Assembly: GCF_025753855.1 (NCBI RefSeq)
Contig: NZ_JAOWPT010000002.1
Coordinates: 1 to 64,000 of the forward strand
Origin: Mesorhizobium sp. ZC-5
Lineage (GTDB): Bacteria; Pseudomonadota; Alphaproteobacteria; Rhizobiales; Rhizobiaceae
Length of the DNA: 64,000 nt
Reading direction: 5' to 3'
Positions 1-64,000 of the stretch are shown one piece after another; within the stretch, counting starts at the first letter, position 1, and the number at the start of each line of letters is the position of its first letter. The notes under the pieces are model-generated. The model did no database searches. It had not been told where the DNA came from and saw nothing but the letters and a program-made list of their open reading frames with translations. The position numbers and the translations under genes were made by a program.

Positions 1-674
1 ACCGAACCGGCACCGTCGGCGCCGAAGGCAGGCGCTGCAAACAGCCCGGCGATCGCAGCCGCCGAGATGATCGCCGGATTGAGGCCATCGCCGTCGCCGC
101 CAAGCCCGGCATTCGATTCATCAAGCAGCGCCGATGCCGTCACCCCGGCAACAGCCGTCGCGTTCGGGCCGTCGTCCTCGAAGCTGATCGCCAGCCCGTT
201 GACGCTGGTCGCCGTGTCGGTGTCGCCGTCGCCGTCGGTCACCGTCTGCACCACCCGGATCGCCGCCGCCGCCGACAGCGTCAGCGCGTCGTCATGCGCT
301 CCACCCTCGGGACCGTCGACCCCATGCTCCAGCGTCGCCGCCTGCGTCACCGTCACCTGGCCGGTCGCCGCGTTGATCGAGATGGTGAAGGCGAGCGTGC
401 CGCCGGCGCCGCCGGCGCGGCCTTCGAACACCGTCGCCGACACCTGCACCAGCAGGATCTCGTTGGCCGCGCCCGACTGGCCGGTCAGCCACAGGCCGGT
501 CGCCGCACCAGCCGTCGCTGACAGCGTGTAGCCGACCGAACCGGCACCGTCGGCGCCGAAGGCAGGCGCTGCAAACAGCCCGGCGATCGCAGCCGCCGAG
601 ATGATCGCCGGATTGAGGCCATCGCCGTCGCCGCCAAGCCCGGCATTCGATTCATCAAGCAGCGCCGATGCCGT
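1..674 (-). repeat. Tandem 534-bp coding repeats in the adhesin
   Basis: Bases 1-140 and 535-674 are identical, a direct repeat with a 534-bp (178-codon) period inside the adhesin frame. The copies diverge abruptly after base 140/674. More copies probably lie to the left of the window. The DNA identity implies recent duplication or gene conversion, and makes this stretch prone to assembly collapse. Confidence 0.9.
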
Positions 675-2528
675 GACACCCGCGACAGCCGTGGCGTTCG
701 GCACATCATCGATGATTTCGACGTCCAAAGTTGCGGTGGCGCTGGAGCCATCCTCATCCGTTACGACGACTGCAAACGTATCGAAGACGCCACCGTTCTC
801 GCCATTGTTGGCCGGCCCATGTGCCAATGTGTTATCGGTCAGATGATAGGAGTAGCCGACGGTGCCGCCGACAACCTCGCCAGCCGCGATCACCGGCGTG
901 AAGCTTGTGATCGTGAGAATACCCGTTGGTGTGCTGATTGTGCCACCAACAAGAACCCCACCCACGACGACCGTGACACCGTCGATCGTTATCGTATCCA
1001 GCCCGTCGACGGTCGAGAGCGTGAAGGTTCCAGATTGAGTGAGCGCTGCTGCGTCGGGTGAAGAGCCTTCGGCAAGATTATCCTCATCGACTCTCAGCTC
1101 GCCGCCGACCACATCAAGACCAGTAATGGTCACGCCATCATCAGCGCCGAGGATCGTAATCGTCAGCGTTGTCGTCGATGTATCGCCGTCGCCATCCGTC
1201 AAAGTATATGTAAAGACATCGGTCAGCTGTTCGCCAGCGCTTAGACCCTGGACGCGGGGATCGTTGCCAAGGACATACTGATAGCTGCCATTCGATTGCA
1301 GGATCAGCATCCCATAGACGCCCGTGACGGAGGCGCCGATGTTTCCATTGGCGCCCGTCGTAGTCCCAGCCACAACCCCTGTCACGGACGCACCATCGGC
1401 GCCAGCGGTGTCATTGGTCATGACCGAGCCGATGGCGGTCAGCGGACCGTCTTCCGTAACGCTGTTAAGGTCATGGACGGCAACCGGACCGTCATCGCTG
1501 ATAAGAATGGAGAAATCGTCGCTCGCGGTATCACCGTTGCCATCGATCACTGTCACGATGAAATTGTCGAACACCGGATCAGCAACGCCGGTCACCCCCG
1601 GGTTCTCGTGATCGTTGGTGTTGGAGGTCAACACATACTCAAAGTGGAGTTCGCCGTCGGCACCGCTCCGCGTGATGATCAGTGTTCCATAGAGACCCTG
1701 AATGATGCCGCCATTGGTGATGTCGACAATATCTCCAGCTTCGTTGCGAATGGTGATAGAAGCAATCCCATCGTCGCCGGGACTAACATCAATGACCCCC
1801 GCTGCGGTGGTGCTACCGCCGCCCGAGCCGATTGAGGTCGGGGTTTTCAAGGCCGACTCGTTAACGATGCCTTCGTCAGCGTCCAGGATGACGCCATCCC
1901 GAATAACCTCGACGTCGATCTTCGGGAAATCATTGCGGAGATCGGGGTACAGTTCAGGTTCGTCCAGCCTGCCAAAGGCAAGAGCTGTCGGCGGCAGCAG
2001 ACCAAGGATTGGGCCTGCGTCGCCAATGCCGGGATTTGGATTGCCAAAATTGCCGCCGTTGCTCTGGGCTTCACCAGCGACCGCCACAAGAATACCGTCG
2101 GGACCTGCTGCAACATTAATGCCGTTTGCTTCGAGTGCTGCGGTCAAGGCGATCTGGGGAATTTCGACGTCGTCGATCCAGAAGGTTGGAATGTTGAGCG
2201 CCGCGTTCTTGACGATAACGACCGAACCATCGGGCTGCTCAAGCACCAGGTCGCGGCCTTCAATCTTGATCTTTTCGATCGATACACCTTCAGGAAGGTG
2301 AACGGCATTGCCCTCTCCGACGATGGCAATCTTCACAGGCTGCGGCGCGGCCGAACTGGCAGCGCCTTCGCCGAGTTGTTGGCCAGTGCCCGCATCGACG
2401 GGAGCGGGTTCGCTGTTGTCCTGTGCCACGATCACCGCTGCAGGTGCCGCATCCGGCTGCACCACCTCTGCAGCGTTCATCGCTTCGCTCGCGGCGTTGC
2501 CTGCGACGTCAAAATCTTCCATTGCCAT
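1..2528 (-). CDS. Giant repeat adhesin (VCBS/DUF5801-type), N-terminal part
   Basis: This is an open minus-strand frame of about 842 codons starting at the ATG at 2528 and leaving the window at base 1, so the C-terminus and any RTX secretion signal are outside. Residues 1-65 are acidic and Ala/Pro rich. About 66-150 is a compact domain containing HLPEGVSIEKIKIEG and ending in INVAAGPDG. From about 230 onward it has Asp/Gly/Thr-rich beta-sandwich repeats with DGDGDT motifs typical of VCBS/DUF5801 adhesins. The last visible repeats have a 178-residue period. There is no Sec signal, as expected for a type I substrate. The TolC-ABC-HlyD operon at 4782-9791 is the likely exporter, and the divergent cysteine peptidase at 2834 may release the protein. 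A second ATG at 2522 could be the true start. Frame and family type are secure; the exact role (biofilm or root attachment) is inferred. Confidence 0.85.
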   Translation of the reverse strand, partial: MAMEDFDVAGNAASEAMNAAEVVQPDAAPAAVIVAQDNSEPAPVDAGTGQQLGEGAASSAAPQPVKIAIVGEGNAVHLPEGVSIEKIKIEGRDLVLEQPDGSVVIVKNAALNIPTFWIDDVEIPQIALTAALEANGINVAAGPDGILVAVAGEAQSNGGNFGNPNPGIGDAGPILGLLPPTALAFGRLDEPELYPDLRNDFPKIDVEVIRDGVILDADEGIVNESALKTPTSIGSGGGSTTAAGVIDVSPGDDGIASITIRNEAGDIVDITNGGIIQGLYGTLIITRSGADGELHFEYVLTSNTNDHENPGVTGVADPVFDNFIVTVIDGNGDTASDDFSILISDDGPVAVHDLNSVTEDGPLTAIGSVMTNDTAGADGASVTGVVAGTTTGANGNIGASVTGVYGMLILQSNGSYQYVLGNDPRVQGLSAGEQLTDVFTYTLTDGDGDTSTTTLTITILGADDGVTITGLDVVGGELRVDEDNLAEGSSPDAAALTQSGTFTLSTVDGLDTITIDGVTVVVGGVLVGGTISTPTGILTITSFTPVIAAGEVVGGTVGYSYHLTDNTLAHGPANNGENGGVFDTFAVVVTDEDGSSATATLDVEIIDDVPNATAVAGVTASALLDESNAGLGGDGDGLNPAIISAAAIAGLFAAPAFGADGAGSVGYTLSATAGAATGLWLTGQSGAANEILLVQVSATVFEGRAGGAGGTLAFTISINAATGQVTVTQAATLEHGVDGPEGGAHDDALTLSAAAAIRVVQTVTDGDGDTDTATSVNGLAISFEDDGPNATAVAGVTASALLDESNAGLGGDGDGLNPAIISAAAIAGLFAAPAFGADGAGS
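2103..2114 (-). other. Candidate di-alanine cleavage site in adhesin
   Basis: Adhesin residues 139-142 read VAAG. LapG-type peptidases cut LapA-like adhesins at an N-terminal di-alanine within motifs such as TAAG, at about residue 107-110. The position and the AAG core fit, but the surrounding domain does not obviously match the classical LapA retention module. The site is only a candidate. Confidence 0.3.
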
Positions 2529-2833
2529 GGATTTCAAGCCCCATTCCCGATGATGGGATCCAAGCCCTCAAACTCTGACATTATCAAGTCTTTGTTAACG
2601 ACGTTCATATAACTGGATATTCGGGCGTCCCAGTTTTTTATAAATGGTTAATATAAGCATATAATCAGATATGCCTATCTTCCCTTGTAGCCATGCGGCT
2701 CCGAAATAGAGGGTCAGAAAGTACAGTTTCTAAAATTTTAGAAGAAAAGGTAACTGTAAGTAAATCAAGTCATTTAAGCGATATTTCAGACCGATATATT
2801 AGAATTTCCCTTAGTCAAGGGAGATCGTGTGCG
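2529..2833. promoter_or_regulatory. AT-rich divergent promoter region
   Basis: About 300 bases between the adhesin start (minus) and the peptidase start (plus), with no convincing gene. Composition drops sharply to AT-rich from about 2560 to 2860, unlike the GC-rich flanks, with runs such as ttaatataagcatataat. It must hold promoters for both genes. No specific operator was recognised. Confidence 0.55.
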
Positions 2834-3814
2834 GTGAGTATTTTTAAAATAAGCCGAAAATACTGCGAACAAATAGTCGCGAATTCCTGCTCAATCTTCG
2901 TGGCATTACTTGCCATGGTGGTGGTAGGACATGCTGGACCGGCGCAGGGCACCGTCGATCCGCACATCGATGTCCAGTTCTGGCCGGCATCCTGGTCGTT
3001 GCCAACCATTCATCCCGACCACGTCTCAAGCCCCGATGACGATTCAGCAAACCCAACGCCCGCTCTCTGGCGCTATGTCACGCTTAGTCATCATTTGAGT
3101 GACGCCACATCTGCCACCGCCCGGCAAGAACGGATACAAACAAACACCTCGACAGCCGGACCGTTCGGATCGGTCCTGCTCCGCATCGCCAGTCCGCCCA
3201 CCCTAGGTCGGTGGGGCCCGATTTCTGAACAAGTCGCAATCAGCCCGGTAGATACCTGTTCGCAGGCCAATGGCTGTTCACTTATCGAACGGCGCCTCGC
3301 CGCCGCTATAGCGATGGCGAAAGGGGTCGGCTTCGCGCAGCGCCTTGCCATCATAAATGCAAAGGTCAATCAGCTGATTCAATATGAATCCGACTATTCC
3401 GCTTATCGGGTTGCCGATCACTGGGCCGGGCCAGGTGAAACGTTGGCCAGGGGCCGGGGAGACTGCGAAGACTACGCTATTTTGAAAATGGCCGCCCTGC
3501 GGGCCGCCGGCGTGCCGGTCAAAAGTATGTCGATGGTTGTGCTCTTGGACCGCCAGCGTAACCTCTTTCACGCTATTTTGTTGGTAAGCACCGATAAAGG
3601 CCGCTTCGTGCTCGATAATCTTCGTAACACCGTCGCGATGGACACCGAGTTTGCGGATTATCAACCGCTCTTTTCGATGAGCGAGGATCGGGCGTGGATC
3701 CACGGGGTCAAGAAAGGCTCGAGCCTAACCGTTGCCGGCAAGATGGACTTCGTGTCGGTAGCGCCCGGAACAGGTGCTGCGGCGGAGAGCCCTGCCCCAC
3801 ACCGCAGACCTTAA
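2834..3814 (+). CDS. Transglutaminase-like cysteine peptidase (BTLCP, LapG-like)
   Basis: A 326-residue periplasmic cysteine peptidase of the BTLCP family (PF06035), the fold of LapG, which clips surface adhesins. The Cys-His-Asp triad is visible: C211 in RGRGDCEDYAIL, H246 in NLFHAILLV and D261 in RFVLDNLRN. The N-terminus is an export signal with a basic start (FKISRKYCEQ) and hydrophobic core (SIFVALLAMVVVG). I chose the GTG at 2834, preceded by AAGGGA at 2817-2822. The open frame continues upstream to an ATG at 2693, but those codons are AT-rich and unlike coding sequence. It is divergent from the adhesin and next to the type I exporter, so the adhesin is its probable substrate. Family assignment is strong; substrate is inferred. 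Confidence 0.85.
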   Translation: MSIFKISRKYCEQIVANSCSIFVALLAMVVVGHAGPAQGTVDPHIDVQFWPASWSLPTIHPDHVSSPDDDSANPTPALWRYVTLSHHLSDATSATARQERIQTNTSTAGPFGSVLLRIASPPTLGRWGPISEQVAISPVDTCSQANGCSLIERRLAAAIAMAKGVGFAQRLAIINAKVNQLIQYESDYSAYRVADHWAGPGETLARGRGDCEDYAILKMAALRAAGVPVKSMSMVVLLDRQRNLFHAILLVSTDKGRFVLDNLRNTVAMDTEFADYQPLFSMSEDRAWIHGVKKGSSLTVAGKMDFVSVAPGTGAAAESPAPHRRP

Positions 3815-4149
3815 GGCCGGTGCTGCTATCGGCAAGAACATGGACAGGTCCGTCCGGTGGAAGCTGGCGATCATGCCGTCGGGTTTGAGATTGCCGCTCG
3901 CCTGCACCATGACCGCCGAACGATCTGTGCACCAAAGCCATCGGAACGGGCTTGTTCGTCTCAAAGCTGCGTCGGACATATAGGCGCGCCTCCGCGCAGG
4001 CGGTACCACCATTGAGTATAGCTTCCAGTTGGACGATAGCCTCGACTGCCTGGATACCTATCTGTAATCCGACCACAATGCCGGGACACCGTTGCAACAG
4101 GGCACGTTGCAGCAACCGCGGCGACCATGGACACACTTCCCGCCATCGA
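3815..4149. other. Intergenic stretch without a recognisable gene
   Basis: This stretch lies between the convergent ends of the cysteine peptidase and the RHH/PAS gene. A minus-strand open frame of 142 codons crosses it (3708-4136), but overlaps the peptidase gene by over 100 bases and matches no family I know. I see no convincing gene, repeat or terminator here. Confidence 0.4.
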
Positions 4150-4785
4150 TCAACTCGACGAAACGTATCCCAGTATGATCGTCTGAGCTTTCGATGGTGC
4201 GATGACGGCGTTCAGGCGGCCGCGAACCCTTTGGTCTTCCACTGCCAGGATAAAGCCGGTCGATATGGGCCGGTTCCCATTCTCTTTGAGGGTTCGAACA
4301 AGTTCTTGAATTTGAACCTCCAGCGAAAGCCGCAGTCCCGGGCCCATCGTGCCTGCACTCACTCTTGGAAATTTCGACTGAATGAAAAGCAGAAACGGCT
4401 GGTTGGAATAAAGAATCCGCTTGTCTTCAGTGAGAGCAAATGTCGGCACGGGCGATACCTGAACGAGGCTATCGATGACGTGGACGCCCAGCTGACTTTG
4501 AGCTGCGTCGAGTTGCGCGCGCAGCCATTGCAGGCACAGGACGCGCAGAACGGATGTGATGTTGGCGCCTTCTCGAAACTCGGCCTCCGATTGATGGACA
4601 ATATCACCAAGCGTTCGCCCTTCGGCGACGCTAAGTTCCTTCAGCACGTTCCAGTAGATCTTTTCGAGCCTGATACCGCGTCGATCCGGCCCAACCTTAA
4701 CCGCTCGAAAGATAGGCGTGTAGTCACCGACTCGGGCTTGATCAGAGCCGCCCACGTCGGACGAGGTCTCAGGCAGGACGGTCAT
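4150..4785 (-). CDS. Ribbon-helix-helix protein with PAS-like C-terminal domain
   Basis: A 211-residue protein, last gene of the type I secretion operon. Residues about 26-90 (FRAVKVGPDRRGIRLEKIYW onward, then a helix GRTLGDIVHQ) match the RHH_4-type ribbon-helix-helix domain common in alphaproteobacteria. Residues about 105-210 look like a PAS fold: VSPVPTFALTEDKRILYSNQ is the typical opening of a PAS domain, and GLRLSLEVQIQELVRTL and the final strand TIILGYVSS fit the rest. The start ATG overlaps the stop of hlyD (ATGA at 4782-4785), so the two are translationally coupled. A DNA-binding plus sensory protein here suggests feedback control of the adhesin or exporter. The RHH call is good; the PAS call and role are inferred. 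Confidence 0.7.
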   Translation of the reverse strand: MTVLPETSSDVGGSDQARVGDYTPIFRAVKVGPDRRGIRLEKIYWNVLKELSVAEGRTLGDIVHQSEAEFREGANITSVLRVLCLQWLRAQLDAAQSQLGVHVIDSLVQVSPVPTFALTEDKRILYSNQPFLLFIQSKFPRVSAGTMGPGLRLSLEVQIQELVRTLKENGNRPISTGFILAVEDQRVRGRLNAVIAPSKAQTIILGYVSSS

Positions 4786-6062
4786 CGTTCGCGCAGGGCC
4801 TCGTCTTTTGCCTTGTTGATCGGTTTCAGCAGATAATGAAGGATCGTCTTGTGTCCGGTCATAATGTCGACCGAGGCGATCATTCCCGGAATTATCGCAT
4901 AGGTGCGGCCATCTTTGACCAGTTCCGATTTCGCGGTTTTAACGCGGACCTGATAGAACGTTTCGCCCGAGTTCTGGTCGACAAGACTGTCGGCCGTAAT
5001 GTTCGACACTTCTCCTTCGATGCCACCATAGATGGAGAAGTCATATGCGCTGATCTTGACCAGCGCCGGCTGCCCTGGCCGCACGAAGGCAATGTCACGC
5101 GGCGAAACCCGGGCCTCGACCAGCAAGGTTTCGGACGTGGGCACAACGCCGCCGATCACCGAGCCGGGCTGCACATAGGCGCCAATGGTGTTCACGTCGA
5201 GCGTGTTGATGACACCATCCACCGGTGATCGAATATCGGTTCTCGCCACGCGGTCCGAGGCGCCGCGGATGGTTTCCTCGATGACGGAAAGTTCTGAAAG
5301 CGCCTGGGTTTTCTCGGCCAGCGCTTCCTGCTGAAGCTGCAGCCCCAGTTCGTCCACCTGCAGAGAGGCTTCGCTTATGGCCGCTTTGATGCGATCGATG
5401 GACTCCTTTGCGAGCTGAAGTTGACCGGTTACCTCAGTCAATTCCTTCTGCACACGAATGAGGTCTGTCTGAGCCACAAGCTTGCGTTTGGCCATCGGCG
5501 CAATCAGATCCTCTTCGCGCTGCGCGATTTTAAGGTTCTCCTCCAGGCGTGAAATATTGGCATGGGCTTCGTCGAGTTCTTTCATGCGCTGCTGGCGCCG
5601 CTCCTCAAGCACGGACAGCTTGTTGCGGAAATTGTCGCGCCGGGCACGCAGCAACTGATTTTCGTTCTCACATATCTGCGGTGACGTCTTGGCAATGGCT
5701 TCAGGGCAATCGAGGTCGGACTTGAAATCTCCCGCCATCTCGATTTCGAGCCGGGCAATCTGCGTCTGGAGCGCGCGCGAGCGGGCAACCGATTCCCCTA
5801 GCGACGCCGTTGTGGAGGTATCATCGAGCCTGATGATCAGGTCGCCCTTGCTCACCACTTGCCCCACTTGAACGGCGATCTCCTGGACTACACCAGGCTC
5901 GGTCGACTGAACGATCTGTGTTTTCGAGACCGGAATCACCTTGCCGTCCCCACGGGTTATTTCATCTATCTCCGTAACGGCAGACCAGGCGATGAAAGAA
6001 CCAATGAGGAGGATAATCACCGCGAGGGCGAGCCTCGCAAAGAGCGGAGGCCTCTCAATCAT
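4782..6062 (-). CDS. HlyD-family type I secretion adaptor
   Basis: A 426-residue membrane fusion protein bridging the inner-membrane ABC exporter and outer-membrane TolC. There is one N-terminal membrane helix (residues about 8-30, LALAVIILLIGSFIAWSAV), then a split lipoyl domain (GVVQEIAVQVGQVVSKGDLI at about 57-76). A long alpha-helical coiled coil spans about 90-270, and the closing lipoyl half DIRSPVDGVINTLDV is followed by a beta-barrel with the family motif PGMIASVDIMTG. The length fits LapC/HlyD adaptors. GGAGG lies 6 bases upstream of the ATG. It follows the ABC gene by 67 bases and overlaps the RHH/PAS gene, forming one operon. Confidence 0.92.
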   Translation of the reverse strand: MIERPPLFARLALAVIILLIGSFIAWSAVTEIDEITRGDGKVIPVSKTQIVQSTEPGVVQEIAVQVGQVVSKGDLIIRLDDTSTTASLGESVARSRALQTQIARLEIEMAGDFKSDLDCPEAIAKTSPQICENENQLLRARRDNFRNKLSVLEERRQQRMKELDEAHANISRLEENLKIAQREEDLIAPMAKRKLVAQTDLIRVQKELTEVTGQLQLAKESIDRIKAAISEASLQVDELGLQLQQEALAEKTQALSELSVIEETIRGASDRVARTDIRSPVDGVINTLDVNTIGAYVQPGSVIGGVVPTSETLLVEARVSPRDIAFVRPGQPALVKISAYDFSIYGGIEGEVSNITADSLVDQNSGETFYQVRVKTAKSELVKDGRTYAIIPGMIASVDIMTGHKTILHYLLKPINKAKDEALRER

Positions 6063-6129
6063 AGGAGACCTCCGTCGTCATGGCCGGCAGGCAATGACCG
6101 AAATGTGTCAAACGATCGCGGCTGCGACA

Positions 6130-8277
6130 TCAGCTTGTAGCCATCACTTTCTTCTGAAGTTCCTCGATCACCGTCCTTTTGGGGCCGTCAGCAACCACTC
6201 GTCCTTGGTCGATGACGATGAGGCGGTCGACAAGCTCAAGCATGCTGTATCGATGCGTGGAAATTACCACCGTGGTGGTGCGGTCGAAAGCTTGTGAAAG
6301 CTTTCCAATCAACGCCTTTTCGCTCGCCAGGTCCATCGCGCCGGACGGCTCATCAAGAAACACGATCTTGGGATTGGCAAGCAGCAGTCTGGCAATGGTG
6401 ACGGCCTGTTTTTGTCCACCTGAAAGGTTGTTCCCCCGTTCACCGACCGGCATGTCATAGCCTCGCGGGTGCCGCGATACAAAATCGTCGACGCCCGTCG
6501 CTCTGGCTGCCTCAACGATCTCGCTGTCGCTTGCCCCGCTTCGACCCATAAGCAGATTTTCTTTGACCGTACCCGAAAAGAGGTCGGTTGACTGTCCAGC
6601 AACGGCCACCGCTGCACGGATGACGGCAGGGTGATATTGCCTGGCATCGATGCCGTCGATTGTAAGCATCCCGCCGGTTGCTGGATAAAGCCCGCCGAGC
6701 AGGCGGCCGATGGTTGTCTTTCCCGACCCAATGCGGCCGATGATGCCAACGCGTTCGCCGGGCGATACCGAAAAGTTCAGACCGTTGAGGACCTTGTAAT
6801 CGGAACCCGGATAGACAAAATCGACGCCTCTGAAGCCAAAACTTCCTGCGGTGATCTCTCGGTTGACGAAGCCGACGGTGTTCGGCCGGTCCTCGGGCTG
6901 TGCCATGATGCCATTGAGGATGCGCAGGGAGAGATTTGCCTGTCGCAGGCGAGCCAACGTCAGAGCGATCTGCCCCAGCGGCGCCACCGCCCGGCTGGCA
7001 AGCATGACGGAGGCGATGATCGCCCCGGTCGAAAGGTTGCCTTCCGAAAATTCATATGCGCCCCCAACGACAATTCCCACCGCCACCAGCTGCTGGACCA
7101 GCTGCGTCCAGTTCCCGGCACTGGACGATAGCTGCTTTATGTCTTCGGAGGTGCGCGCGGCGTTTTTGGATAGTTCCCGCCAGCGTCGGAGCAACTGCGC
7201 CTCAGCACGCAACGCCTTGACGGTCTCGATCGTCGAAATCGTTTCAACAAGTAGCGATTGTCTTTGCGCTGCCTCGTTGGCGGCCGCGGCGACGCGGCGC
7301 CCAATCCTGAACTGCGCGATCAACCCGATAAACAACGAAACCAAAAAGGCGACGGCGGGAATGGCAACCAGCCAGCCCGCCAGAACGTAAATGACGATTA
7401 GAAATATGAACACAAAGAAGGTGTCGATCAGCACGGAAATAGTATTCGAGGTGAAAAACTCCCGAACAAATTCATACTGGGTCACCCTGCTGGCGTATTC
7501 TCCGGTCGACATGGGCCGTGCGCTGAGCGAGGTGTTGAGGACTTTCTCAAACAACAAATAGGACAATCTCAAGTCGGCTTGGCGGCCTGCATAGTCGATC
7601 AGCGCCGCACGGGCAGTCTTGAGCAGGAGGTCAAACAGGATGGCCAGCGCCACGCCGCTCGCCAGCACCCATAGCGTTGAGACGGCCTTGTTGGGCAGCA
7701 CCCGATCATACACGTTCATCGTGAAGAGCGGCGATGCCAGCGCCAGCAGATTGATGAACAATGCCGCGAGCGCCACCTGGAGATAGGTTCGCCAGAACGG
7801 TACCAACGTATCGACAAGCCAGTGCCGCCGCTCGATCTGCGGCGCCGTGCCTGACACAGCACCATCGCCCACATTCAGGTAAACAACGGAAAACGACAGG
7901 ACGGCTCGGATGTCCAATCTGAGAAGATCGGCAATGTTCGCCTTTTCCGGCGAATCGAGCAGCGTAACAAAAGACCCGTGCTCGGTTCGATCGAGAAGCG
8001 CGATCGCGTATCCATCCGCAAGCAACAGGAGTGCCGGCAGCACCAGGCGGCCCGTGACCATGTCGTTGATGCGCTGTTGCCGCGTGTCCAATCCAATCTT
8101 GTCAGCCAGATGACTGACGTCTTCGATTGTCACGGCCGTTTCATCGAACGGCACGCCTGAAAAAAGCGCTGTGGGCGAACTCGGGCGCCCAAGGAAGACC
8201 GCTATCTTCTGGAATGCTGACTTGAAATCTTCAACAGCCGGCCCGCCACCGCGCCGCGCTTCTGAATAACCCACCAA
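6130..8277 (-). CDS. Type I secretion ABC transporter (LapB/HlyB type)
   Basis: A 715-residue fused permease-ATPase that powers export of the adhesin. Residues about 20-140 form a C39-peptidase-like domain without the catalytic cysteine (GVPFDE where C39 enzymes have the QxxxxxC motif), as in exporters of RTX proteins that are not processed. About 165-440 is the six-helix membrane domain. The nucleotide-binding domain has Walker A GRIGSGKT (514-521), signature LSGGQ (618-622), Walker B IVFLDE (638-643) and the H-loop H675. The start appears to be TTG at 8277 (or the adjacent GTG), as no ATG lies near the domain start. The gene sits 26 bases after the tolC-like gene, in the same operon as hlyD. 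Confidence 0.93.
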   Translation of the reverse strand: MVGYSEARRGGGPAVEDFKSAFQKIAVFLGRPSSPTALFSGVPFDETAVTIEDVSHLADKIGLDTRQQRINDMVTGRLVLPALLLLADGYAIALLDRTEHGSFVTLLDSPEKANIADLLRLDIRAVLSFSVVYLNVGDGAVSGTAPQIERRHWLVDTLVPFWRTYLQVALAALFINLLALASPLFTMNVYDRVLPNKAVSTLWVLASGVALAILFDLLLKTARAALIDYAGRQADLRLSYLLFEKVLNTSLSARPMSTGEYASRVTQYEFVREFFTSNTISVLIDTFFVFIFLIVIYVLAGWLVAIPAVAFLVSLFIGLIAQFRIGRRVAAAANEAAQRQSLLVETISTIETVKALRAEAQLLRRWRELSKNAARTSEDIKQLSSSAGNWTQLVQQLVAVGIVVGGAYEFSEGNLSTGAIIASVMLASRAVAPLGQIALTLARLRQANLSLRILNGIMAQPEDRPNTVGFVNREITAGSFGFRGVDFVYPGSDYKVLNGLNFSVSPGERVGIIGRIGSGKTTIGRLLGGLYPATGGMLTIDGIDARQYHPAVIRAAVAVAGQSTDLFSGTVKENLLMGRSGASDSEIVEAARATGVDDFVSRHPRGYDMPVGERGNNLSGGQKQAVTIARLLLANPKIVFLDEPSGAMDLASEKALIGKLSQAFDRTTTVVISTHRYSMLELVDRLIVIDQGRVVADGPKRTVIEELQKKVMATS

Positions 8278-8303
8278 ACCCCACCAGTTCGCTTAGATAG
8301 CCC

Positions 8304-9791
8304 TCAGTTCTTTTTCCTTATCGGCGCAAGCAGATCGAGCGGCAGTTCGTTGGTCTGCCTGGTCGGCAGGCGCCGGTATGTCTCCGTCGGAGCCGTTTCG
8401 GGTACGTCGAATTCCGTGCGCGCATACGCCTTGCTCTGTTTTGGCCCCTCCAGATTGAAGGTGCTCAGGAGCTGACCGGTTGCTGCAAGTATGCGGTACT
8501 CCGCAAAGCGTGACGCATACTGGGATGTCTTGGCCAGCACATTGACGTTGTAGCGAGTGTTTTGCGCACCAAGCACGTCGAGCAACGACCGTTGGCCGAC
8601 CACCATCTGTTCCTGGTAGGAGCTGACCAATCCGGCATTTGCATTCGCCTGGGCACGAAACGTCTGTGCAAGGTCGGCCTGCTTGATCCGGCGGTCCCAG
8701 GAAATACGCACCGCTTCCTCGACCTCCCGGTACATCTGATGCAGCACAAGACGCTGTTCACTCGCACGCCGAATCTGTTCCTGCTCGTTCGCGACGTCTA
8801 TTCCACCGCGATAAAGGTTCCAGCGGGCAACCAACCGCGCCTCGAAATCGTTGGTTCGACCGATGGAACCGTCAATGTCGTTGCCGACCTTCGCGCGTCC
8901 TTCCGCGAACACTTCCGGGAAATAGCTGGAACGGGCGGCATCGACCTGTGAATCGGCCGCATCGATGTCAGCGTTTGCCACATGAATCCGTGGATTGTTT
9001 TGGCGGGCAATTCCAATTGCCTGGTCCAGCGAGTCCGGCAACCGCGACAGCACGGATGCCGGCATCTGTGGATCGGTCAGCGGCTTGCCGACCAACTTGT
9101 AAAAACGAATCCGGGCTGCTTCGATCTCTTCGGTCGCTTCCTCGAGTCGAGCATTGGCGGCCAGAAGCCGCTCCTGCGCCTGTAGGCGGTCGGCTTCCGT
9201 CAGGGTTCCGCCGGCGATCAGCGATCCGATGTCATTTGCGATCTTTTGGTGAGCACTGACGTTGCGGCGAGACTCCGCGACGATTTCCGCCTGCAGCATG
9301 AACTCGAGATACTCGCGCACAACCTGAAGGCCGATCGCCTCCGAACGTTCCAATATACGGAACGACGCACCGTCAACCCGCGACGCTTGACGCTCGAGTT
9401 CAGCGCGGCGACCTCCCCCGTCGAACAATTTTTGCGTCACGCTGACGCCGATGTCCGTCGGATAAAGCGGGTCGTCCTCTATGCCGATGGCGCGACGGCT
9501 CAGATTGTCGAGACCACGCGCTCCGACCGAACCCTCTAGGTCAACACTGGGAAGATAAAGACCCCGCGCCTGACGCAATTCAAATTCAATCGCTTCCCGG
9601 TTCTCCACGGCCTGGCCGATTTCCGGGTTCGCCTCAACTGTGACGGCAAGCGCCTCCTTGAGTGTCAAAGCAGAGGCGATCTGCGGCGCGGTTATTATTC
9701 CAACCGTTAGACATGCTGACTGCAGCAAACGCTGTTTGCTCATGCCCCATCCCACCATTACAAGCCCCATTTTCTTCTTGGCCGCCTTCAT
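8304..9791 (-). CDS. TolC-family outer membrane exit duct
   Basis: A 495-residue outer membrane efflux protein and first gene of the secretion operon. The N-terminus is a signal peptide (LLQSACLTVGIITAPQIASA) followed by LTLKEALAVTVEANPEI, the usual opening of TolC proteins. The two OEP repeats contain the expected YNVNVLAK/YRILAATGQLL type helices near the end. The C-terminal 60 residues are a polar, Pro/Thr-rich tail. The ATG at 9791 is the longest start. An internal ATG at 9743 (MSKQRLLQ) puts a normal-length signal peptide at the N-terminus and may be the real one. It would form the channel through which the ABC-HlyD complex exports the adhesin. Confidence 0.9.
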   Translation of the reverse strand: MKAAKKKMGLVMVGWGMSKQRLLQSACLTVGIITAPQIASALTLKEALAVTVEANPEIGQAVENREAIEFELRQARGLYLPSVDLEGSVGARGLDNLSRRAIGIEDDPLYPTDIGVSVTQKLFDGGGRRAELERQASRVDGASFRILERSEAIGLQVVREYLEFMLQAEIVAESRRNVSAHQKIANDIGSLIAGGTLTEADRLQAQERLLAANARLEEATEEIEAARIRFYKLVGKPLTDPQMPASVLSRLPDSLDQAIGIARQNNPRIHVANADIDAADSQVDAARSSYFPEVFAEGRAKVGNDIDGSIGRTNDFEARLVARWNLYRGGIDVANEQEQIRRASEQRLVLHQMYREVEEAVRISWDRRIKQADLAQTFRAQANANAGLVSSYQEQMVVGQRSLLDVLGAQNTRYNVNVLAKTSQYASRFAEYRILAATGQLLSTFNLEGPKQSKAYARTEFDVPETAPTETYRRLPTRQTNELPLDLLAPIRKKN

Positions 9792-10029
9792 ATACCAAGA
9801 AACCTAATATTCTGGAATTCTTAATATGCCAAGTTGCAGCCCCGAATCCATACTTTTCGTAAAACAATGGTCGCGATCAGGGGATGGTATGGAGAAGAAG
9901 CAGCTTTATTCGAGCTTGTTGCAGATGGGCAACAGCCCAGCTATCTGAAATACCGCGTCGCAGTTTTAGGCCAATATCGGCAGCTGGCGCATTAAGCCCA
10001 GATTAATACGATCCAAGTATTCTGGGCGC

Positions 10030-10548
10030 ATGGAACATTCCGTCCGCCGAATGGCAATGCTTCTTGCGTTTCCGGGATTCTTCTTGGCTCTCTTTCTTAC
10101 AGAAAGGCTGGCTACCCACGCGCTCGCGCTGTACCCGGCAAGCCCATTCCTGTGGCGCGCCTCGCTGGAATTGCGGGCCCTGTACGGGGAGTTTTCAAAT
10201 CGTCTCGATCTTCTCAGCGGCTATACGTTGTGGATTCAAATCGTTTTCATAAGCGCGCTGTTTCTCTCGCTCTTTCTTGTCGCGCAAACAAAACGGGGCC
10301 CGGCCGTCTGCTTCCTGGCCAATCATGTGCTGGTGCTTGCAGGGGCATTTGCAACTCTGATTGCCAACAACTTCATGGTGGCAAGTTTTGACGTGGCGGG
10401 GCAGACACCTGATTCAGTGTTCTTTGCCTTGGATTTTCACCTCAATCTCCCTCAAGTCGTCGTGCTGGTGACTGGAATTGCCGGATCTCTGTACTCGCAC
10501 GTCGTTGTCCTGTCTGCCGCTCGCAGAGATCAAAAAATCCGCGCTTGA
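10030..10548 (+). CDS. Small four-helix membrane protein, unknown function
   Basis: A 172-residue hydrophobic protein that I do not recognise. Four membrane segments are predicted at about 8-24, 65-85, 92-115 and 140-162, with a basic tail (AARRDQKIRA). The loop between helices 1 and 2 is about 40 residues. It is transcribed away from the secretion operon and convergent with the GGDEF gene. Coding character is good: high GC at third positions and a hydrophobicity pattern consistent with a real protein. A link to adhesin export is suggested only by position. Confidence 0.6.
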   Translation: MEHSVRRMAMLLAFPGFFLALFLTERLATHALALYPASPFLWRASLELRALYGEFSNRLDLLSGYTLWIQIVFISALFLSLFLVAQTKRGPAVCFLANHVLVLAGAFATLIANNFMVASFDVAGQTPDSVFFALDFHLNLPQVVVLVTGIAGSLYSHVVVLSAARRDQKIRA

Positions 10549-10670
10549 GGCGGTAGCTGCAACCGTGCTGGGATACTCAGGGCTGACGGTTCCGGCCAAC
10601 TTCCATCTTGGAAAGAACCTGACGCAAAGGGCCCGCGCACTTGACCCCGCGCCGTGTCGCATCCCCATCG

Positions 10671-11456
10671 TCAATGCAGTCCGGCGGACCCCGTAACCTG
10701 GCTGACCGGAGCGGCATCGTACTCGATGCGGTCGCCTCCGCTGAGCTTTGCTTCATCCAGTTGGTGATCGGCAGCCATGATGAGCTTGTCGAATGCAACG
10801 GGATGCTCGAAGAACGCCACTCCGCCGCTGATTGTGAGCGTCACGGGATTACCCTCGGGTTCAAATACAACCCCGGTCACGGCACGGCGTATCCGTTCGG
10901 TCACATCCTTGGCGTTCTCTACGCTTGCTCCGGGAAGGAATACAGCGAACTCGTTACCGCTGATGCGGCCGACGATGTCACCCAGTCGTACCGATGACCG
11001 GATAGCGCTGGCGATGATTCGCAGGGCCTCATTTCCCCATTCGTGCCCGAAGCTTTTATTGATCGCCTTCAGACCGTCGGCGTCGAGCACAACAAGCGCT
11101 CCCCCCGTCCGAATCCCCCTGCGCTCGCGCTTGCTGAAATCCTCGACAAACGTTGCGAAGGCAGTGCTGTTGAGGGTCGATGTCAGGCTGTCGAGCGACA
11201 CGGCTCGGTTGAGTTGCTGTTTGAGCCGCGCGATCTTGCGTGTTGCCAAGGTAATCGCCGAAAAGAGCGGAACGCCAAGAACAATCGGCACCAGGATGGC
11301 GCTGATCAAGCTTTGGCGAAACGGATTGACGTCTTCGCGGAAGAACAGGAGGTAATGCGCGAGGACCGAAACGGCCAGGCAGGCGGCTGTTCCCGCGACA
11401 ACGAAAAGCACGCCGTGCAAACGATCGCTGCGGAGGAATTGCAAAACGTTGATCAT
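10671..11456 (-). CDS. Membrane GGDEF protein with degenerate active site
   Basis: A 261-residue protein with two N-terminal membrane helices (about 14-36 and 52-70) and a cytoplasmic GGDEF domain (about 85-250). The signature motif reads SGNEF (166-170). The acidic residue that binds metal at the third position is Asn, and the usual IND motif is INK, so cyclase activity is doubtful. The inhibitory I-site RLGD lies exactly five residues before the motif, as in PleD, so it could bind c-di-GMP as a receptor. I prefer the ATG at 11456; the frame stays open to 11528. It lies between the secretion operon and the second BTLCP gene. Family is certain, activity is inferred. Confidence 0.85.
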   Translation of the reverse strand: MINVLQFLRSDRLHGVLFVVAGTAACLAVSVLAHYLLFFREDVNPFRQSLISAILVPIVLGVPLFSAITLATRKIARLKQQLNRAVSLDSLTSTLNSTAFATFVEDFSKRERRGIRTGGALVVLDADGLKAINKSFGHEWGNEALRIIASAIRSSVRLGDIVGRISGNEFAVFLPGASVENAKDVTERIRRAVTGVVFEPEGNPVTLTISGGVAFFEHPVAFDKLIMAADHQLDEAKLSGGDRIEYDAAPVSQVTGSAGLH

Positions 11457-11606
11457 GCATCTGCCCCGATTTGAAAAGCAGATATGACGTATCGGTTTCG
11501 TATGAAACGAGCGTTGCGCCAAACCCATGCATTTGAATGATCCGGCCCGAAGTCGAATTTCACTTCCGTCCGGAATGACCGGAGACGTGACCGCATCAAG
11601 CTTCGA

Positions 11607-12260
11607 CTACCGAACAATCACTTTTGTTCCAATCTGGACTTGGTTGAAAAGCTCAACGATATCATCGTTCGCCATGCGGATGCAGCCGGAGGACACAGCC
11701 TGACCGATCGACCATGGCTGATTCGTTCCATGTATTCTAAACAGGGTTGACCCAAGATAAAGCGCGCGCGCGCCAAGTGGATTGTCTGGGCCACCTTCCA
11801 CGTAGCTGGGCAGGGTGCGCCCGTTGGCCGCTTCCCTGTCAATCATCTCGGGAGGCGGCGTCCAGCCGGGCCATTCTGCCTTTCGCGAAATCCGTTCCGC
11901 ACCGCGCCAGGTAAACCCTTCTCTACCGACGCCTATCCCGTAGCGGATTGCGGTTCCGTTTCCCAAGACGCGATAAAGCCTCCTTGCGTCCGTATCTACG
12001 ACGATCGTGCCAGCGGACAGGTTTTCGGAGAATGGGACGATCGCTGGCACAATTGGCGAGGCGTTCGAGCGCAGGGCTCTGGGTTTGATTGCAACGCTTC
12101 GTTTTACCCATTTGCCGGTTGCGGGATCGAATTGCCGGACTGTTTGTGAGGCACTCGTTGCCGGCGTTGACCAGACAGGCAAGCTTAACGCCACCAGAAG
12201 CAGCAACACTCCTGACTTGAGGCGCGACTTCCGATGGTTCAGACCCATGTTTGATGACAT
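11607..12260 (-). CDS. L,D-transpeptidase (YkuD/ErfK family)
   Basis: A 217-residue periplasmic L,D-transpeptidase that cross-links peptidoglycan or attaches proteins to it. The catalytic motif is H177-G-T followed by SSGCIRM with nucleophile C193, the typical YkuD HxT...SxGCxR arrangement. The signal peptide is GVLLLLVALSLPVWSTPATS after a basic start. The ATG at 12260 has GGAGG five bases upstream; open frame extends further to 12308. The basic linker VKRSVAIKPR precedes the catalytic domain. It is transcribed in the same direction as the second BTLCP gene upstream of it, but a hairpin and 160 bases separate them. Rhizobial genomes carry many such paralogues, so the precise role is unknown. 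Confidence 0.9.
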   Translation of the reverse strand: MSSNMGLNHRKSRLKSGVLLLLVALSLPVWSTPATSASQTVRQFDPATGKWVKRSVAIKPRALRSNASPIVPAIVPFSENLSAGTIVVDTDARRLYRVLGNGTAIRYGIGVGREGFTWRGAERISRKAEWPGWTPPPEMIDREAANGRTLPSYVEGGPDNPLGARALYLGSTLFRIHGTNQPWSIGQAVSSGCIRMANDDIVELFNQVQIGTKVIVR

Positions 12261-12377
12261 TCCCGCCTCCGAGTTCATCCCAGAGCGTAGCGCTGCTGCG
12301 ACACGCACTCATCGTGAAACCCGATTCTACCGGACGAAGTGGCTGTTCGACAATGGAAGCCGCAGGCGCTGATTTTT

Positions 12378-12416
12378 GGGACTGTCCTAGAAGTCTCAAT
12401 CTCCTAGGACAGTCCC
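12378..12416. repeat. Perfect 13-bp inverted repeat
   Basis: GGGACTGTCCTAG (12378-12390) and its exact complement (12404-12416) are separated by 13 bases. It lies five bases past the stop of the second BTLCP gene on the minus strand, so it is placed as a terminator. However, no U-run follows on the minus transcript; the T-run (12372-12377) lies on the plus strand just before it. It is either a terminator without U-tract or a protein-binding palindrome. Confidence 0.5.
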
Positions 12417-12420
12417 GAAT

Positions 12421-13284
12421 TTAGATGGAATTGCTTCCATTATGTACCGATCTGCCGGTTTGCTTTGATATTCGCGATCCGTAGATCCAGGATCGGTCGT
12501 TGCTAAAAGAAACCAGCGGCAAATAATCGGCAACCTCGCGATCCTCCCGGATCACATTTGTCACGCTGTCCAGTACAACGTTTCGCGCGTCTGTCCGCAC
12601 GATCAACACCGCGTGGAAGACCTGTCGGCGTTCGTCCCTCAACAGGAGGAGGGTGAGGTCACGCGTGTCGAAGCCGAGCTTTTGCAGCAGGAGCATCTTC
12701 GCTATGGCAAGATCCTCGCAATCGCCGGCACCGATCGCCAGCGTCTGATCAAGGTCGGCCCAGTGGTCCGGCTTGCGGTAGAGTTGCTCATCGGCGACGT
12801 AATTTACCAACCCGTTTATCCCTGAATTCACCAGACCGATTTGCGACGCGACGCCCTCACCGGCGGCCTGTTCAATCAGCGCTGCCGCCGAACGGATGGT
12901 TTTATTGGGGCACAAATGGCGCTCCAAACAAGCGTTGAATTGCGCCATTGCCTCCGGGCTTCGTACCCTGTCCCAGGAACGGCCTTGCACGGGCGATGAG
13001 AGAGGAAGTGCCACCGCGTTGAAAAAAGCGGCCCGCGTTTCATGGGCTACGGGTTCGTTGGCTGCGAGATCGAGCGTCACCCTTGGCATTGCTTGCGGAT
13101 CGATCGAGCCTCGCAAGCCATCAACGGTCGCTATCGATCCGGTGGTGAATGGGCTTGGGGGCGTACTGGTGACACACCCCGCTGGCCCGGCTGCGATGGC
13201 GAGAACCTGAAGCCCTTTTACGATCTGTCGTATCGGGAAATGCCGGCAGCCCCACCGGTTCTGGCCCACAAACCAAAAACTCAT
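12421..13284 (-). CDS. Second transglutaminase-like cysteine peptidase (BTLCP)
   Basis: A 287-residue paralogue of the BTLCP at 2834-3814. The triad is C189 (GAGDCEDLAIAK), H224 (QVFHAVLIV) and D239 (NVVLDSVTN). The region LVNYVADEQLYRKPDHWADL before the Cys is diagnostic for PF06035. The N-terminus has a short hydrophobic stretch ending AAGPAGC at Cys37, a weak lipobox, so it may be a lipoprotein rather than a soluble periplasmic enzyme. Two paralogues within 13 kb of one adhesin raise the question whether they divide substrates or act in sequence. It heads a minus-strand group with the transpeptidase and GGDEF genes and is divergent from the hybrid kinase. Confidence 0.85.
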   Translation of the reverse strand: MSFWFVGQNRWGCRHFPIRQIVKGLQVLAIAAGPAGCVTSTPPSPFTTGSIATVDGLRGSIDPQAMPRVTLDLAANEPVAHETRAAFFNAVALPLSSPVQGRSWDRVRSPEAMAQFNACLERHLCPNKTIRSAAALIEQAAGEGVASQIGLVNSGINGLVNYVADEQLYRKPDHWADLDQTLAIGAGDCEDLAIAKMLLLQKLGFDTRDLTLLLLRDERRQVFHAVLIVRTDARNVVLDSVTNVIREDREVADYLPLVSFSNDRSWIYGSRISKQTGRSVHNGSNSI

Positions 13285-16820: not shown

Positions 16821-18074
16821 CTATTCCGCCGCTTGCCTGCCGCCGCGGCCGAACCGCTGCTCGATATAGGCGGCGACCATCCTCTCGAATTCCTCGGCGA
16901 TATCCGGACCGCGCAGCGTCGCCGCCTTCTTGCCGTCGATGAACACCGGCGCCGTCGGCGTCTCGCCCGTGCCGGGCAGCGAGATGCCGATATCGGCATG
17001 TTTCGATTCGCCCGGCCCGTTGACGATGCAGCCCATCACCGCGACCTTCAGTTCCTCGACACCCGGATATTGCTCGCGCCAGACCGGCATGTTCTTGCGC
17101 AGATCGTTCTGGATGTTCTGAGCCAGTTCCTGGAAAACCGTCGAGGTAGTGCGCCCGCAGCCGGGACAGGCCGCCACGATCGGCACGAATTGCCGGAAGC
17201 CCATCGTCTGCAGCAGTTCCTGCGCCACCTGAACCTCGCGGGTGCGATCGCCGTTCGGTTCCGGCGTCAGCGAAACGCGGATCGTGTCGCCAATGCCCTG
17301 CTGCAGCAGGATGCCCATCGCCGCCGAAGACGCCACGATGCCTTTCGAACCCATGCCCGCTTCCGTCAGGCCGAGATGCAAGGCGTGGTCGGAGCGTTTG
17401 GCAAGTTCCGCATAGACCGCGATCAGGTCCTGCACCTGGCTCACCTTGGCGGAGAGAATGATTTTTTCACGCGGCAGGCCGATCTCTTCGGCGGCCGCCG
17501 CCGACAGCAGCGCCGACTGCACGATCGCCTCGCGCATCACCTGGTTAGCGGTCAGCGGAGATCCCTGCTTCTGGTTGTCGTCCATCAGCCGGGTCAGCAG
17601 CTCCTGGTCGAGCGAGCCCCAGTTGACACCGATCCGCACCGGCTTGTTGTAGCGGATCGCCATTTCGACGATGGCGCCGAACTGCTTGTCCTTCTTTTCC
17701 TTGAAGCCGACATTGCCGGGATTGATGCGGTATTTCGCCAGCGCCTCGGCGCAGGACGGATGGTCGGCCAGAAGCTTGTGGCCGATGTAATGGAAGTCGC
17801 CCACCAGCGGCACGTTGATGCCGAGCCGATCGAGCCGCTCGCGGATGCCGGCAACGGCGGCAGCGCTCTCGTCGCGGTCGACGGTGATGCGCACGATCTC
17901 GGAGCCGGCCTTCGCCAGAGCGGCCACCTGCGCCACCGTCTGGTCGACGTCGGCGGTGTCGGTGTTGGTCATCGACTGCACGACGACCGGGGCATTGCCG
18001 CCCACCATCACGCCGCCGACATCGACGCCGACCGAATGGCGGCGGTCGAAGGGAGAGGAAAAATATCCGGTCAT
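16821..18074 (-). CDS. ispG: 4-hydroxy-3-methylbut-2-enyl diphosphate synthase (IspG/GcpE)
   Basis: A 417-residue 4Fe-4S enzyme of the non-mevalonate (MEP) isoprenoid pathway that converts MEcPP to HMBPP. The TIM-barrel N-terminal part opens [20 protein letters not shown]. The cluster cysteines are C303 and C306 (CPGCGRTT) and C349 (GCIVNGPGE), and the conserved Glu follows in NGPGE. The length fits the usual 370-430 of the bacterial flavodoxin/ferredoxin-dependent enzyme. It is followed two bases later by the lytic transglycosylase. Housekeeping gene; assignment is secure. Confidence 0.97.
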
Positions 18075-18991: not shown

Positions 18992-19777
18992 ATGACAACA
19001 GGGAAAAAGACCGCCATCGTCACCGGATCGACCTCGGGAATCGGCCTGGCGATTGCCCACGCTCTGGCCGCCGAAGGCTGCAACGTCGTCGTCAATTCGT
19101 TTTCGAACACCGACACGGATCATGCCGTCGCCAAGGAGATCGCCGCGAAACACAAGGTCGAGGCGGTCTATGTCCAGGCCGACATGTCGAAGGGTGATGA
19201 TTGCCGGGCGCTGGTGGGGAAGGCCGCCGAAAAGTTCGGCACCGTCGACATCCTGGTCAACAATGCCGGCATCCAGCACGTGGCGCCCGTCGACGAGTTC
19301 CCGGTCGAGCAGTGGGACCGCATCATCGCCATCAACCTCACCTCGGCTTTTCACACCACCGCTGCCGCCCTGCCGTTGATGAAGGCGAAGAAATGGGGCC
19401 GCATCGTCAACATCGCCTCGGCACACGGCCTGCGTGCCTCGCCGTTCAAGTCGGCCTATGTCGCCGCCAAGCATGGCATCCTCGGCCTTACCAAGACGGT
19501 GGCGCTGGAAGTCGCGGAACAAGGCATCACCTGCAACACCATCTGCCCCGGCTACGTGCTGACGCCGCTGGTCGAGGCGCAGATCCCGGACCAGATGAAG
19601 GCCCACAACATGGACCGCGACACCGTCATCCGCGAGGTCATGCTCGACCGCCAGCCGACCAGGCAGTTCGCCACCGTCGAACAGATCGGCGCCACAACCG
19701 TGTTCCTCTGCTCCGAAAATGCCGCGTCGATCACCGGCACGCCGATCTCGGTCGACGGCGGCTGGACCGCGCAGTGA
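18992..19777 (+). CDS. bdhA: 3-hydroxybutyrate dehydrogenase
   Basis: A 261-residue short-chain dehydrogenase that oxidises D-3-hydroxybutyrate to acetoacetate with NAD in polyhydroxybutyrate and ketone-body use. The cofactor motif is TGSTSGIG (11-18) and the NNAG motif is at 90-93. The catalytic set is S143, Y156 and K160 (YVAAK). Diagnostic BDH features are the substrate region NIASAHGLRASPFKSAYV and the segment CPGYVLTPLVEAQI with an extended lid (QMKAHNMDRDTVIREVML). The C-terminus SVDGGWTAQ is typical. It is followed four bases later by a patatin-like phospholipase, probably in one transcript. Confidence 0.95.
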   Translation: MTTGKKTAIVTGSTSGIGLAIAHALAAEGCNVVVNSFSNTDTDHAVAKEIAAKHKVEAVYVQADMSKGDDCRALVGKAAEKFGTVDILVNNAGIQHVAPVDEFPVEQWDRIIAINLTSAFHTTAAALPLMKAKKWGRIVNIASAHGLRASPFKSAYVAAKHGILGLTKTVALEVAEQGITCNTICPGYVLTPLVEAQIPDQMKAHNMDRDTVIREVMLDRQPTRQFATVEQIGATTVFLCSENAASITGTPISVDGGWTAQ

Positions 19778-19781
19778 TCTC

Positions 19782-31249: not shown

Positions 31250-34711
<3,462 letters not shown>

Positions 34712-62365: not shown

Positions 62366-64000
<1,635 letters not shown>

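Follow-up and report, generated by a model that had tools for sequence, protein, structure and literature searches.

How is a giant adhesin released from the cell surface when the receptor that would restrain its protease is not to be found? In Pseudomonas, LapG clips the adhesin LapA, and LapD, a receptor for cyclic di-GMP (c-di-GMP), restrains LapG. The first 64 kb of contig C2 (C2:1-64000; hereafter the window) of the 6.34-Mb draft genome of Mesorhizobium sp. ZC-5, assembled in 68 contigs, carry a similar set of genes: a giant repeat adhesin of a type I secretion system (T1SS), a LapG-type bacterial transglutaminase-like cysteine proteinase (BTLCP) that we call BT1, and an exporter operon whose fourth gene encodes a protein with ribbon-helix-helix (RHH) and PAS domains. 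On sequence evidence, we consider it fairly probable that this is a Lap-type display and release module without LapD, in which the RHH-PAS protein sets adhesin and protease through a pair of palindromes between the two genes.

Paired palindromes between the adhesin and protease genes

The genes and sites concerned are as follows.

1..2528, minus strand: giant T1SS repeat adhesin, N-terminal part only (Pfam DUF5801/Big_9; 35 N-termini aligned)
2606..2623, no strand: operator-like palindrome, site 1, adhesin-proximal (expectation-maximization motif; 15.2 bits in the locus scan)
2658..2675, no strand: operator-like palindrome, site 2, protease-proximal (18.0 bits in the locus scan; 52 bp from site 1)
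2693..3814, plus strand: BT1, LapG-type BTLCP protease (PF06035, 79.7 bits; cut-off 27)
4150..4785, minus strand: RHH-PAS protein, fourth gene of the exporter operon, predicted transcription regulator

We searched the 260 bp upstream of 35 adhesin genes by expectation maximization with palindromic symmetry imposed. The search found an 18-bp palindrome with a consensus of roughly RYATAWNNNNWTATRY. At a threshold of at least 9 bits, one copy (site 1) is present in 34 of the 35 loci, 71-85 bp ahead of the assigned adhesin start, and a second copy (site 2) is present in 25, at a distance of 51-54 bp from site 1. In base-permuted controls, site 1 was found in 5 of 700 cases and site 2 in 3 of 700.

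The adhesin and BT1 genes are transcribed divergently in 32 of these loci. Site 2 occurs in 25 of the 29 loci that have a divergent BT1 within ~450 bp, measured from the adhesin start to the BT1 open reading frame (ORF) end; the remaining four are L079, L083, L087 and L088. It occurs in none of the six loci in which BT1 is on the same strand as the adhesin (three loci) or more than ~800 bp away (L068, L071 and L072). Since the presence of site 2 follows the position of BT1, we infer that site 1 serves the adhesin gene and site 2 the protease gene.

A scan of 830,852 bases yielded 67 sites of at least 15 bits, all of them no more than 450 bp before, or 60 bp inside, the start of a module gene. 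Fifty-nine of the 67 are at an adhesin gene, a count that is partly circular given that the matrix was trained there. No site reached 15 bits in 304,696 simulated bases. All 19 non-training loci, none of which duplicates a training locus, have a site of at least 13 bits, and 12 of them have a site pair, in every case spaced 53 bp. These 12 do not represent many independent lineages, since 11 are from Mesorhizobium and one is from Cohaesibacter. We also scanned loci from named genomes, using the best 80 of 581 relatives, with at least eight duplicates of loci in the family set. RHH is present in 33 of these best 80, and 27 of the 33 (duplicates counted) have a site of at least 15 bits; the other six show no adhesin N-terminus.

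Other elements were seen in the same region. The sequence TGGTTAA is kept between both palindromes in many loci (in the window, within the 2606-2675 region), and some loci of Mesorhizobium, Neorhizobium, Sinorhizobium and Aminobacter have a separate AAAATTTT-centred palindrome close to the BT1 start.

The RHH-PAS regulator and the distribution of the module

The start of the RHH-PAS gene overlaps the stop of hlyD by 4 bp. Its product has an RHH_4 domain and fold, with the PAS domain at the C-terminus. Among 296 genomes of the family, RHH-PAS and BT1 are both present in 42, RHH-PAS alone in 1, BT1 alone in 5 and neither in 248 (Fisher's exact test, 3e-44, relatedness ignored). Wherever a locus contains RHH-PAS and hlyD, the former follows the latter on the same strand (39/39), and RHH-PAS and BT1 co-occur in genomes G059, G175 and G219 despite being unlinked. 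We infer that RHH-PAS controls transcription of the adhesin and protease genes. In G075, which has RHH-PAS without BT1, an operator-like site (L215 10324) lies ~200 bp ahead of a sugar epimerase ORF. This is possibly a second RHH-PAS regulon, and possibly chance.

Relatives of BT1, defined at E ≤1e-20, occur in 48 of 298 genomes of the family and in 24 of 109 genera, those of the window included. The loci compared number 49: 48, with one genome represented twice, plus the window. Gene families recur among them as follows: BT1 in 49, ABC in 42, HlyD and TolC in 40 each, adhesin and RHH in 39 each, GGDEF in 23, and YkuD in 10, including the window. A comparison of synteny had been suggested in a first-pass annotation of this DNA, made from the sequence alone, and it finds BTLCP, exporter and RHH together in ~40 of the 49 loci. 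The other two genomes of the window's genus have no close BT1 and no RHH-PAS match. Represented among the named loci (again the best 80 of 581) are Mesorhizobium, Sinorhizobium, Rhizobium, Neorhizobium, Nitratireductor, Aminobacter and Cohaesibacter. In many sphingomonad loci, the protease and exporter genes are present with no RHH match.

Exporter, adhesin and protease

The remaining genes of the exporter operon are these.

4782..6062, minus strand: HlyD-type periplasmic adaptor (TIGR01843, 380.7 bits; cut-off 208.65)
6130..8277, minus strand: LssB-type T1SS ABC permease/ATPase (TIGR03375, 782.7 bits; cut-off 693.1)
8304..9791, minus strand: TolC-type outer-membrane protein (OEP), first gene of the exporter operon (PF02321, 122.7 bits)

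The TolC-type protein scores 214.6 bits against TIGR01844, slightly under the NCBIfam cut-off of 225.15. BT1 is divergent from the adhesin gene and convergent with the leftward exporter operon, which runs TolC, ABC, HlyD, RHH-PAS. The first-pass annotation had called this operon complete. Its TolC, ABC and HlyD genes are indeed present, but the fourth gene, RHH-PAS (4150-4785, minus strand), had been overlooked. Pfam and NCBIfam matches bear out the annotation's broader description of an adhesin, a BTLCP, an exporter operon, a degenerate GGDEF protein and a second BTLCP within 13 kb.

The end of the contig falls inside the adhesin gene, on the minus strand, leaving ~842 N-terminal residues visible. 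The contigs of several relatives likewise stop on the adhesin side, a few kb beyond BT1, which would be expected if assemblies break at adhesin repeats. The probable start codon is ATG 2528; the first start codon of the ORF is TTG 2537. The N-terminal domain is conserved across the 35 aligned adhesins. In the window it is accompanied by a helix and by NVAAGPDG, which contains a LapG-like AAG. With respect to the [T/A/P]AAG of Lap adhesins, the window has VAAG; the N-terminal domain and helix are conserved, and the structural model and fold matches are weak. At the candidate cleavage motif, the 35 adhesins have AAG (24), AFG (9), AEG (1) or AYG (1). AFG replaces AAG in the adhesins of L055, L056, L058, L076, L078, L081, L085, L092 and L094, and AEG replaces it in the Rhizobium-group loci L072, L126, L128, L129, L134 and L135.

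Among solved chains at E ≤0.01, a profile of 20 BT1 homologs matches only the LapG structures 4u65 (7.1e-27) and 4fgo (8.7e-22). BT1 residues C258, H293, D308, D257 and E259 are unchanged in all 20 aligned homologs, and we assign them to the catalytic triad and Ca2+ site because of their alignment with LapG and DvhG. BT1 and the second BTLCP of the window, BT2, score 72.4 and 76.2 bits against the NCBIfam LapG equivalog NF045674, far under its cut-off of 320, in agreement with their earlier description as divergent. Judged by its sequence and predicted active site, BT1 is a LapG-type protease that is too distant for the NCBI LapG equivalog. Its true start may be GTG 2834, which precedes a signal-like hydrophobic segment. 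LapG residues V205 and Y206 served for crosslinking to LapD (PMC4359373). By residue count they map to PVYS, a position at which most BT1 homologs have PLYS or PLFS and the window has PLFS.

The count of two BTLCPs in the first-pass annotation holds for the window; the genome has four, of which two lie elsewhere. These are short proteins (C5:80596-81072 and C2:388640-389116), with no adjoining T1SS genes seen within 3.5 kb. BT2 has no separate ortholog group among the 296 genomes of the family, and its best matches elsewhere are BT1 proteins.

The search for LapD

The absence of a visible LapD, noted earlier for the 13-kb region, extends to the whole draft genome, where the sole match to PF16448 (LapD_MoxY_N) is a HAMP histidine kinase on another contig. 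Two matches, both histidine kinases, were found in the 47 other BT1-carrying genomes. Hence only three LapD_MoxY_N matches, all in histidine kinases, occur in 48 genomes, consistent with an alphaproteobacterial LapG-type adhesin module without LapD, as first suggested. In 385 genomes of the class, PF16448 has 12 matches in 11 genomes, with no EAL motif in the residues read and kinase-like ends; one of these, the hybrid-kinase-like L241, was read over 660 of its 879 residues. Such searches could miss a LapD with an output domain too divergent for the Pfam model. A local EAL model gave no match among 10,631 ORFs from 149 stretches, which comprised the window and the surroundings of these and related loci, but the control for this model was its own 14 training proteins, which does not establish its sensitivity to a degenerate LapD EAL domain.

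The ZC-5 genome encodes 14 EAL proteins, and the 10 that were scanned with Pfam have no LapD_MoxY_N and no HAMP domain. L013 has a region between two hydrophobic stretches ahead of its GGDEF-EAL part, and L250 has a CHASE domain. Among three proteins scanned with the LapD equivalog, L013 matches over the GGDEF-EAL part only, at 140.8 bits against a cut-off of 1020. HD-GYP (PF13487) has no match in the genome, although a divergent HD-GYP could escape. The weakest EAL matches among the 14 are those of L018 and L019, tandem short genes at C12:40791-42667.

A degenerate GGDEF protein beside the module

The following genes lie beyond the exporter operon.

10030..10548, plus strand: four-transmembrane protein (four transmembrane segments by hydropathy; sub-threshold match only in Pfam, no NCBIfam family above cut-off)
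10671..11528, minus strand: two-transmembrane GGDEF protein with degenerate SGNEF and intact I-site RLGD, candidate c-di-GMP receptor (Pfam, hydropathy)
11607..12308, minus strand: YkuD L,D-transpeptidase, on the same strand as BT2 and the GGDEF gene, a recurrent neighbour (PF03734, 86.1 bits)
12421..13284, minus strand: BT2, second divergent BTLCP (PF06035, 59.8 bits; cut-off 27)

BT2, YkuD and the GGDEF gene, separated by gaps of 112 and 78 bp, are possibly an operon in this genome. The GGDEF protein has two hydrophobic helices with ~16 residues between them as a periplasmic loop. Its GGDEF motif reads SGNEF, and an RxxD motif (RLGD) is kept upstream. We searched 50 genomes (the 48 with BT1 and two sister genomes) with a profile of this family at E ≤1e-45, which gave 57 proteins in 37 genomes. 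Proteins encoded within 16 kb of the RHH gene were considered linked (n=26), and the others (n=31) unlinked. GG(D/E)EF is lost in 22 of the 26 linked copies, with 15 different spellings, and in 8 of the 31 others (Fisher's exact test, 9e-6, relatedness ignored). Seven of the 22 degenerate linked copies share the spelling GPASF. Some “unlinked” degenerate copies lie on separate contigs and might represent the same gene. The RxxD I-site is kept in 26/26 linked and 29/31 other copies. Because the catalytic motif is usually lost and the I-site kept, the linked GGDEF protein may be a c-di-GMP receptor. Sequestration of the protease in the manner of LapD is argued against by the length of the periplasmic loop.

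A proposed mechanism and its alternatives

We propose the following sequence of events. The TolC-ABC-HlyD pump would export the giant adhesin, which would be held at the cell by its N-terminal domain. BT1, in the periplasm, could cut off this domain and release the cell. The PAS domain of RHH-PAS would sense a cytoplasmic ligand or redox state, and the protein would bind the palindrome pair, one member at the adhesin promoter and the other at the divergent protease promoter. Transcription would set the stock of adhesin and protease, instead of or besides the post-translational hold of LapD, and c-di-GMP may act on this control through the membrane GGDEF protein. The likeliest reading is that the adhesin is displayed and released in the Lap manner, BT1 playing the part of LapG, and that transcription, governed by RHH-PAS at the paired sites, has taken over some or all of the control. 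We are more doubtful of a broader version, which would be a third mode of the Lap-type release switch and in which the Hyphomicrobiales lost the LapD hold and replaced it with a two-site RHH-PAS operator, reciprocal or joint, together with c-di-GMP input from a catalytically dead GGDEF protein with an I-site.

Several observations weigh against this proposal. The candidate cleavage motif AAG is replaced by AFG, AEG or AYG in 11 of the 35 adhesins, and a weak AlphaFold2 model (pLDDT 59) shows it as part of a short strand and not of an open linker. RHH-PAS is missing from five BT1 genomes, including G293, which retains the exporter. Loci L131, L132 and L139 have only the AAAATTTT-centred site near BT1, a site of at least 15 bits lies near a module gene in three of 47 named loci without RHH (L133, L153 and L178), and six sites in 1.80 Mb adjoin no module gene. 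The tie between operator and RHH has few negatives, the adhesins of RHH-less loci being barely sampled. The exact RYATAWNNNNWTATRY pattern occurs at two places in the 6.34-Mb genome, one of which is site 2, and a reversed control also gives two. Hence, the weight of the palindrome rests on its position and its conservation across species. Retention of RxxD is weak evidence for a receptor, since it is nearly as common in unlinked intact copies; GGEEF is intact in four of the 26 linked copies, and in G151, which has no RHH-PAS, a GGEEF copy counted as unlinked lies 2.4 kb from BT1. Lastly, a 2020 survey (PMC7730722) places LapD-like genes in Bradyrhizobium and in some Mesorhizobium clusters of this kind.

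An alternative explanation is that no receptor holds BT1, and that release is set only by the timing of protease synthesis and by Ca2+. This would resemble Caulobacter HvyA, an unstable protein whose presence is restricted to G1 by control of its transcription and translation (PMC4241560). We regard this as possible, at rather less than an even chance. The retention of Ca2+-site residues in BT1 and the tracking of BT1 by site 2 are in its favor, but HvyA affects capsulation and not a T1SS adhesin, and the linked GGDEF protein stays unexplained. The first-pass annotation had instead named the GGDEF protein as one candidate for replacing the LapD step. In a version of this that we considered, binding of c-di-GMP to the I-site would let the protein act directly, across the membrane, on the pump or protease. 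Here the frequent linkage (26 of 48 genomes have the gene no more than 16 kb from RHH-PAS), the usual degeneration of the active site and the universally kept I-site of linked copies stand up, and PelD and CdgG provide a precedent for RxxD as a c-di-GMP site in a degenerate GGDEF domain (PMC3032553). Its architecture, however, is not that of LapD: two transmembrane segments and so short a loop provide no periplasmic domain for holding a protease, and the gene is more than 16 kb away or unlinked in 22 of the 48 genomes. We therefore doubt that it is the substitute. The same annotation's other candidate, the membrane protein at 10030-10548, is not supported as a general replacement for LapD, with homologs in few loci only, all Mesorhizobium where named.

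It is unlikely, in our view, that BT1 is held by an unlinked membrane c-di-GMP receptor with a large periplasmic domain, as proposed for DvhD and DvhG in Desulfovibrio. DvhD itself is a precedent (PMC13090378), the genome does not lack EAL proteins, two of which, L013 and L250, have suitable layouts, and most BT1 homologs have PLYS or PLFS at the LapG strand that crosslinks to LapD. Set against this are the absence of HD-GYP matches in the genome and the restriction of the L013 match to the GGDEF-EAL part of the LapD equivalog. It is similarly unlikely that RHH-PAS is a passive passenger of the operon and that the palindromes belong to another regulator. The binding of RHH-PAS to the palindromes is a prediction, and conservation of TGGTTAA between the sites in many loci means that other factors may use the region; but RHH-PAS accompanies BT1 across the 296 genomes, including some in which their genes are not linked, and for a global regulator one would expect more than two exact sites in the genome.

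Relation to known systems

The module with RHH-PAS control that we favor shares several features with the Lap system of Pseudomonas fluorescens (LapA, LapG, LapD and LapBCE): a giant T1SS adhesin whose N-terminal region is conserved, an LssB-type exporter, and a BTLCP in which the triad and Ca2+ residues are the same. It differs in that no LapD was detected, the exporter operon carries RHH-PAS, paired palindromes lie between divergent adhesin and protease genes, and the AAG is preceded by V or I rather than T, A or P and is not invariant. The Dvh system of Desulfovibrio vulgaris (DvhA, DvhG and DvhD) is also a Lap-like module without LapD. There, the receptor DvhD is a dCache-PAS-HD-GYP protein encoded in the same operon, whereas the candidates here are the cytoplasmic RHH-PAS and the two-transmembrane GGDEF protein. 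HvyA is likewise an alphaproteobacterial periplasmic BTLCP outside LapD control, but it controls the capsule, is encoded in a capsule export locus and has no known adhesin partner. PopA, like PelD and CdgG, is a degenerate GGDEF receptor for c-di-GMP. All three have lost GG(D/E)EF and kept the RxxD I-site, as has the GGDEF protein of the window, for which c-di-GMP binding is predicted; their domain layouts differ from that of the window protein.

The occurrence of rhizobial DDxP adhesin genes beside T1SS and BTLCP genes has been described (Di Nocera and De Gregorio 2020, PMC7730722), and such adhesin-T1SS-BTLCP clusters are already known in outline. In the parts of that survey covered here, LapD-like genes are mentioned, and RHH-PAS, operators and a degenerate GGDEF are not. 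The RHH-PAS link, the palindromes and the decay of GGDEF were not found among the matches listed in searches of open-licence literature. According to the 2026 Dvh paper, functionally analogous systems in other bacteria await identification (PMC13090378).

What is the significance of control by RHH-PAS? For the control of a LapG-type protease without LapD, this locus offers three candidates: the gene of a regulator, an operator region of 70 bp and a protein that may be a c-di-GMP receptor. If our proposal is correct, the switch for surface attachment in rhizobia would lie at the promoter, instead of or in addition to the periplasm. The genera that carry the module include nitrogen-fixing root symbionts.

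Elsewhere in the window, a 567-aa ORF at 59935-61635 has no Pfam family at 1e-5. The other genes recognized are GcpE (16824-18074), a patatin-like phospholipase (19719-20903), an AcrB-type RND pump (26383-29562), pyruvate carboxylase (31253-34711) and a RecQ helicase (62369-63994).

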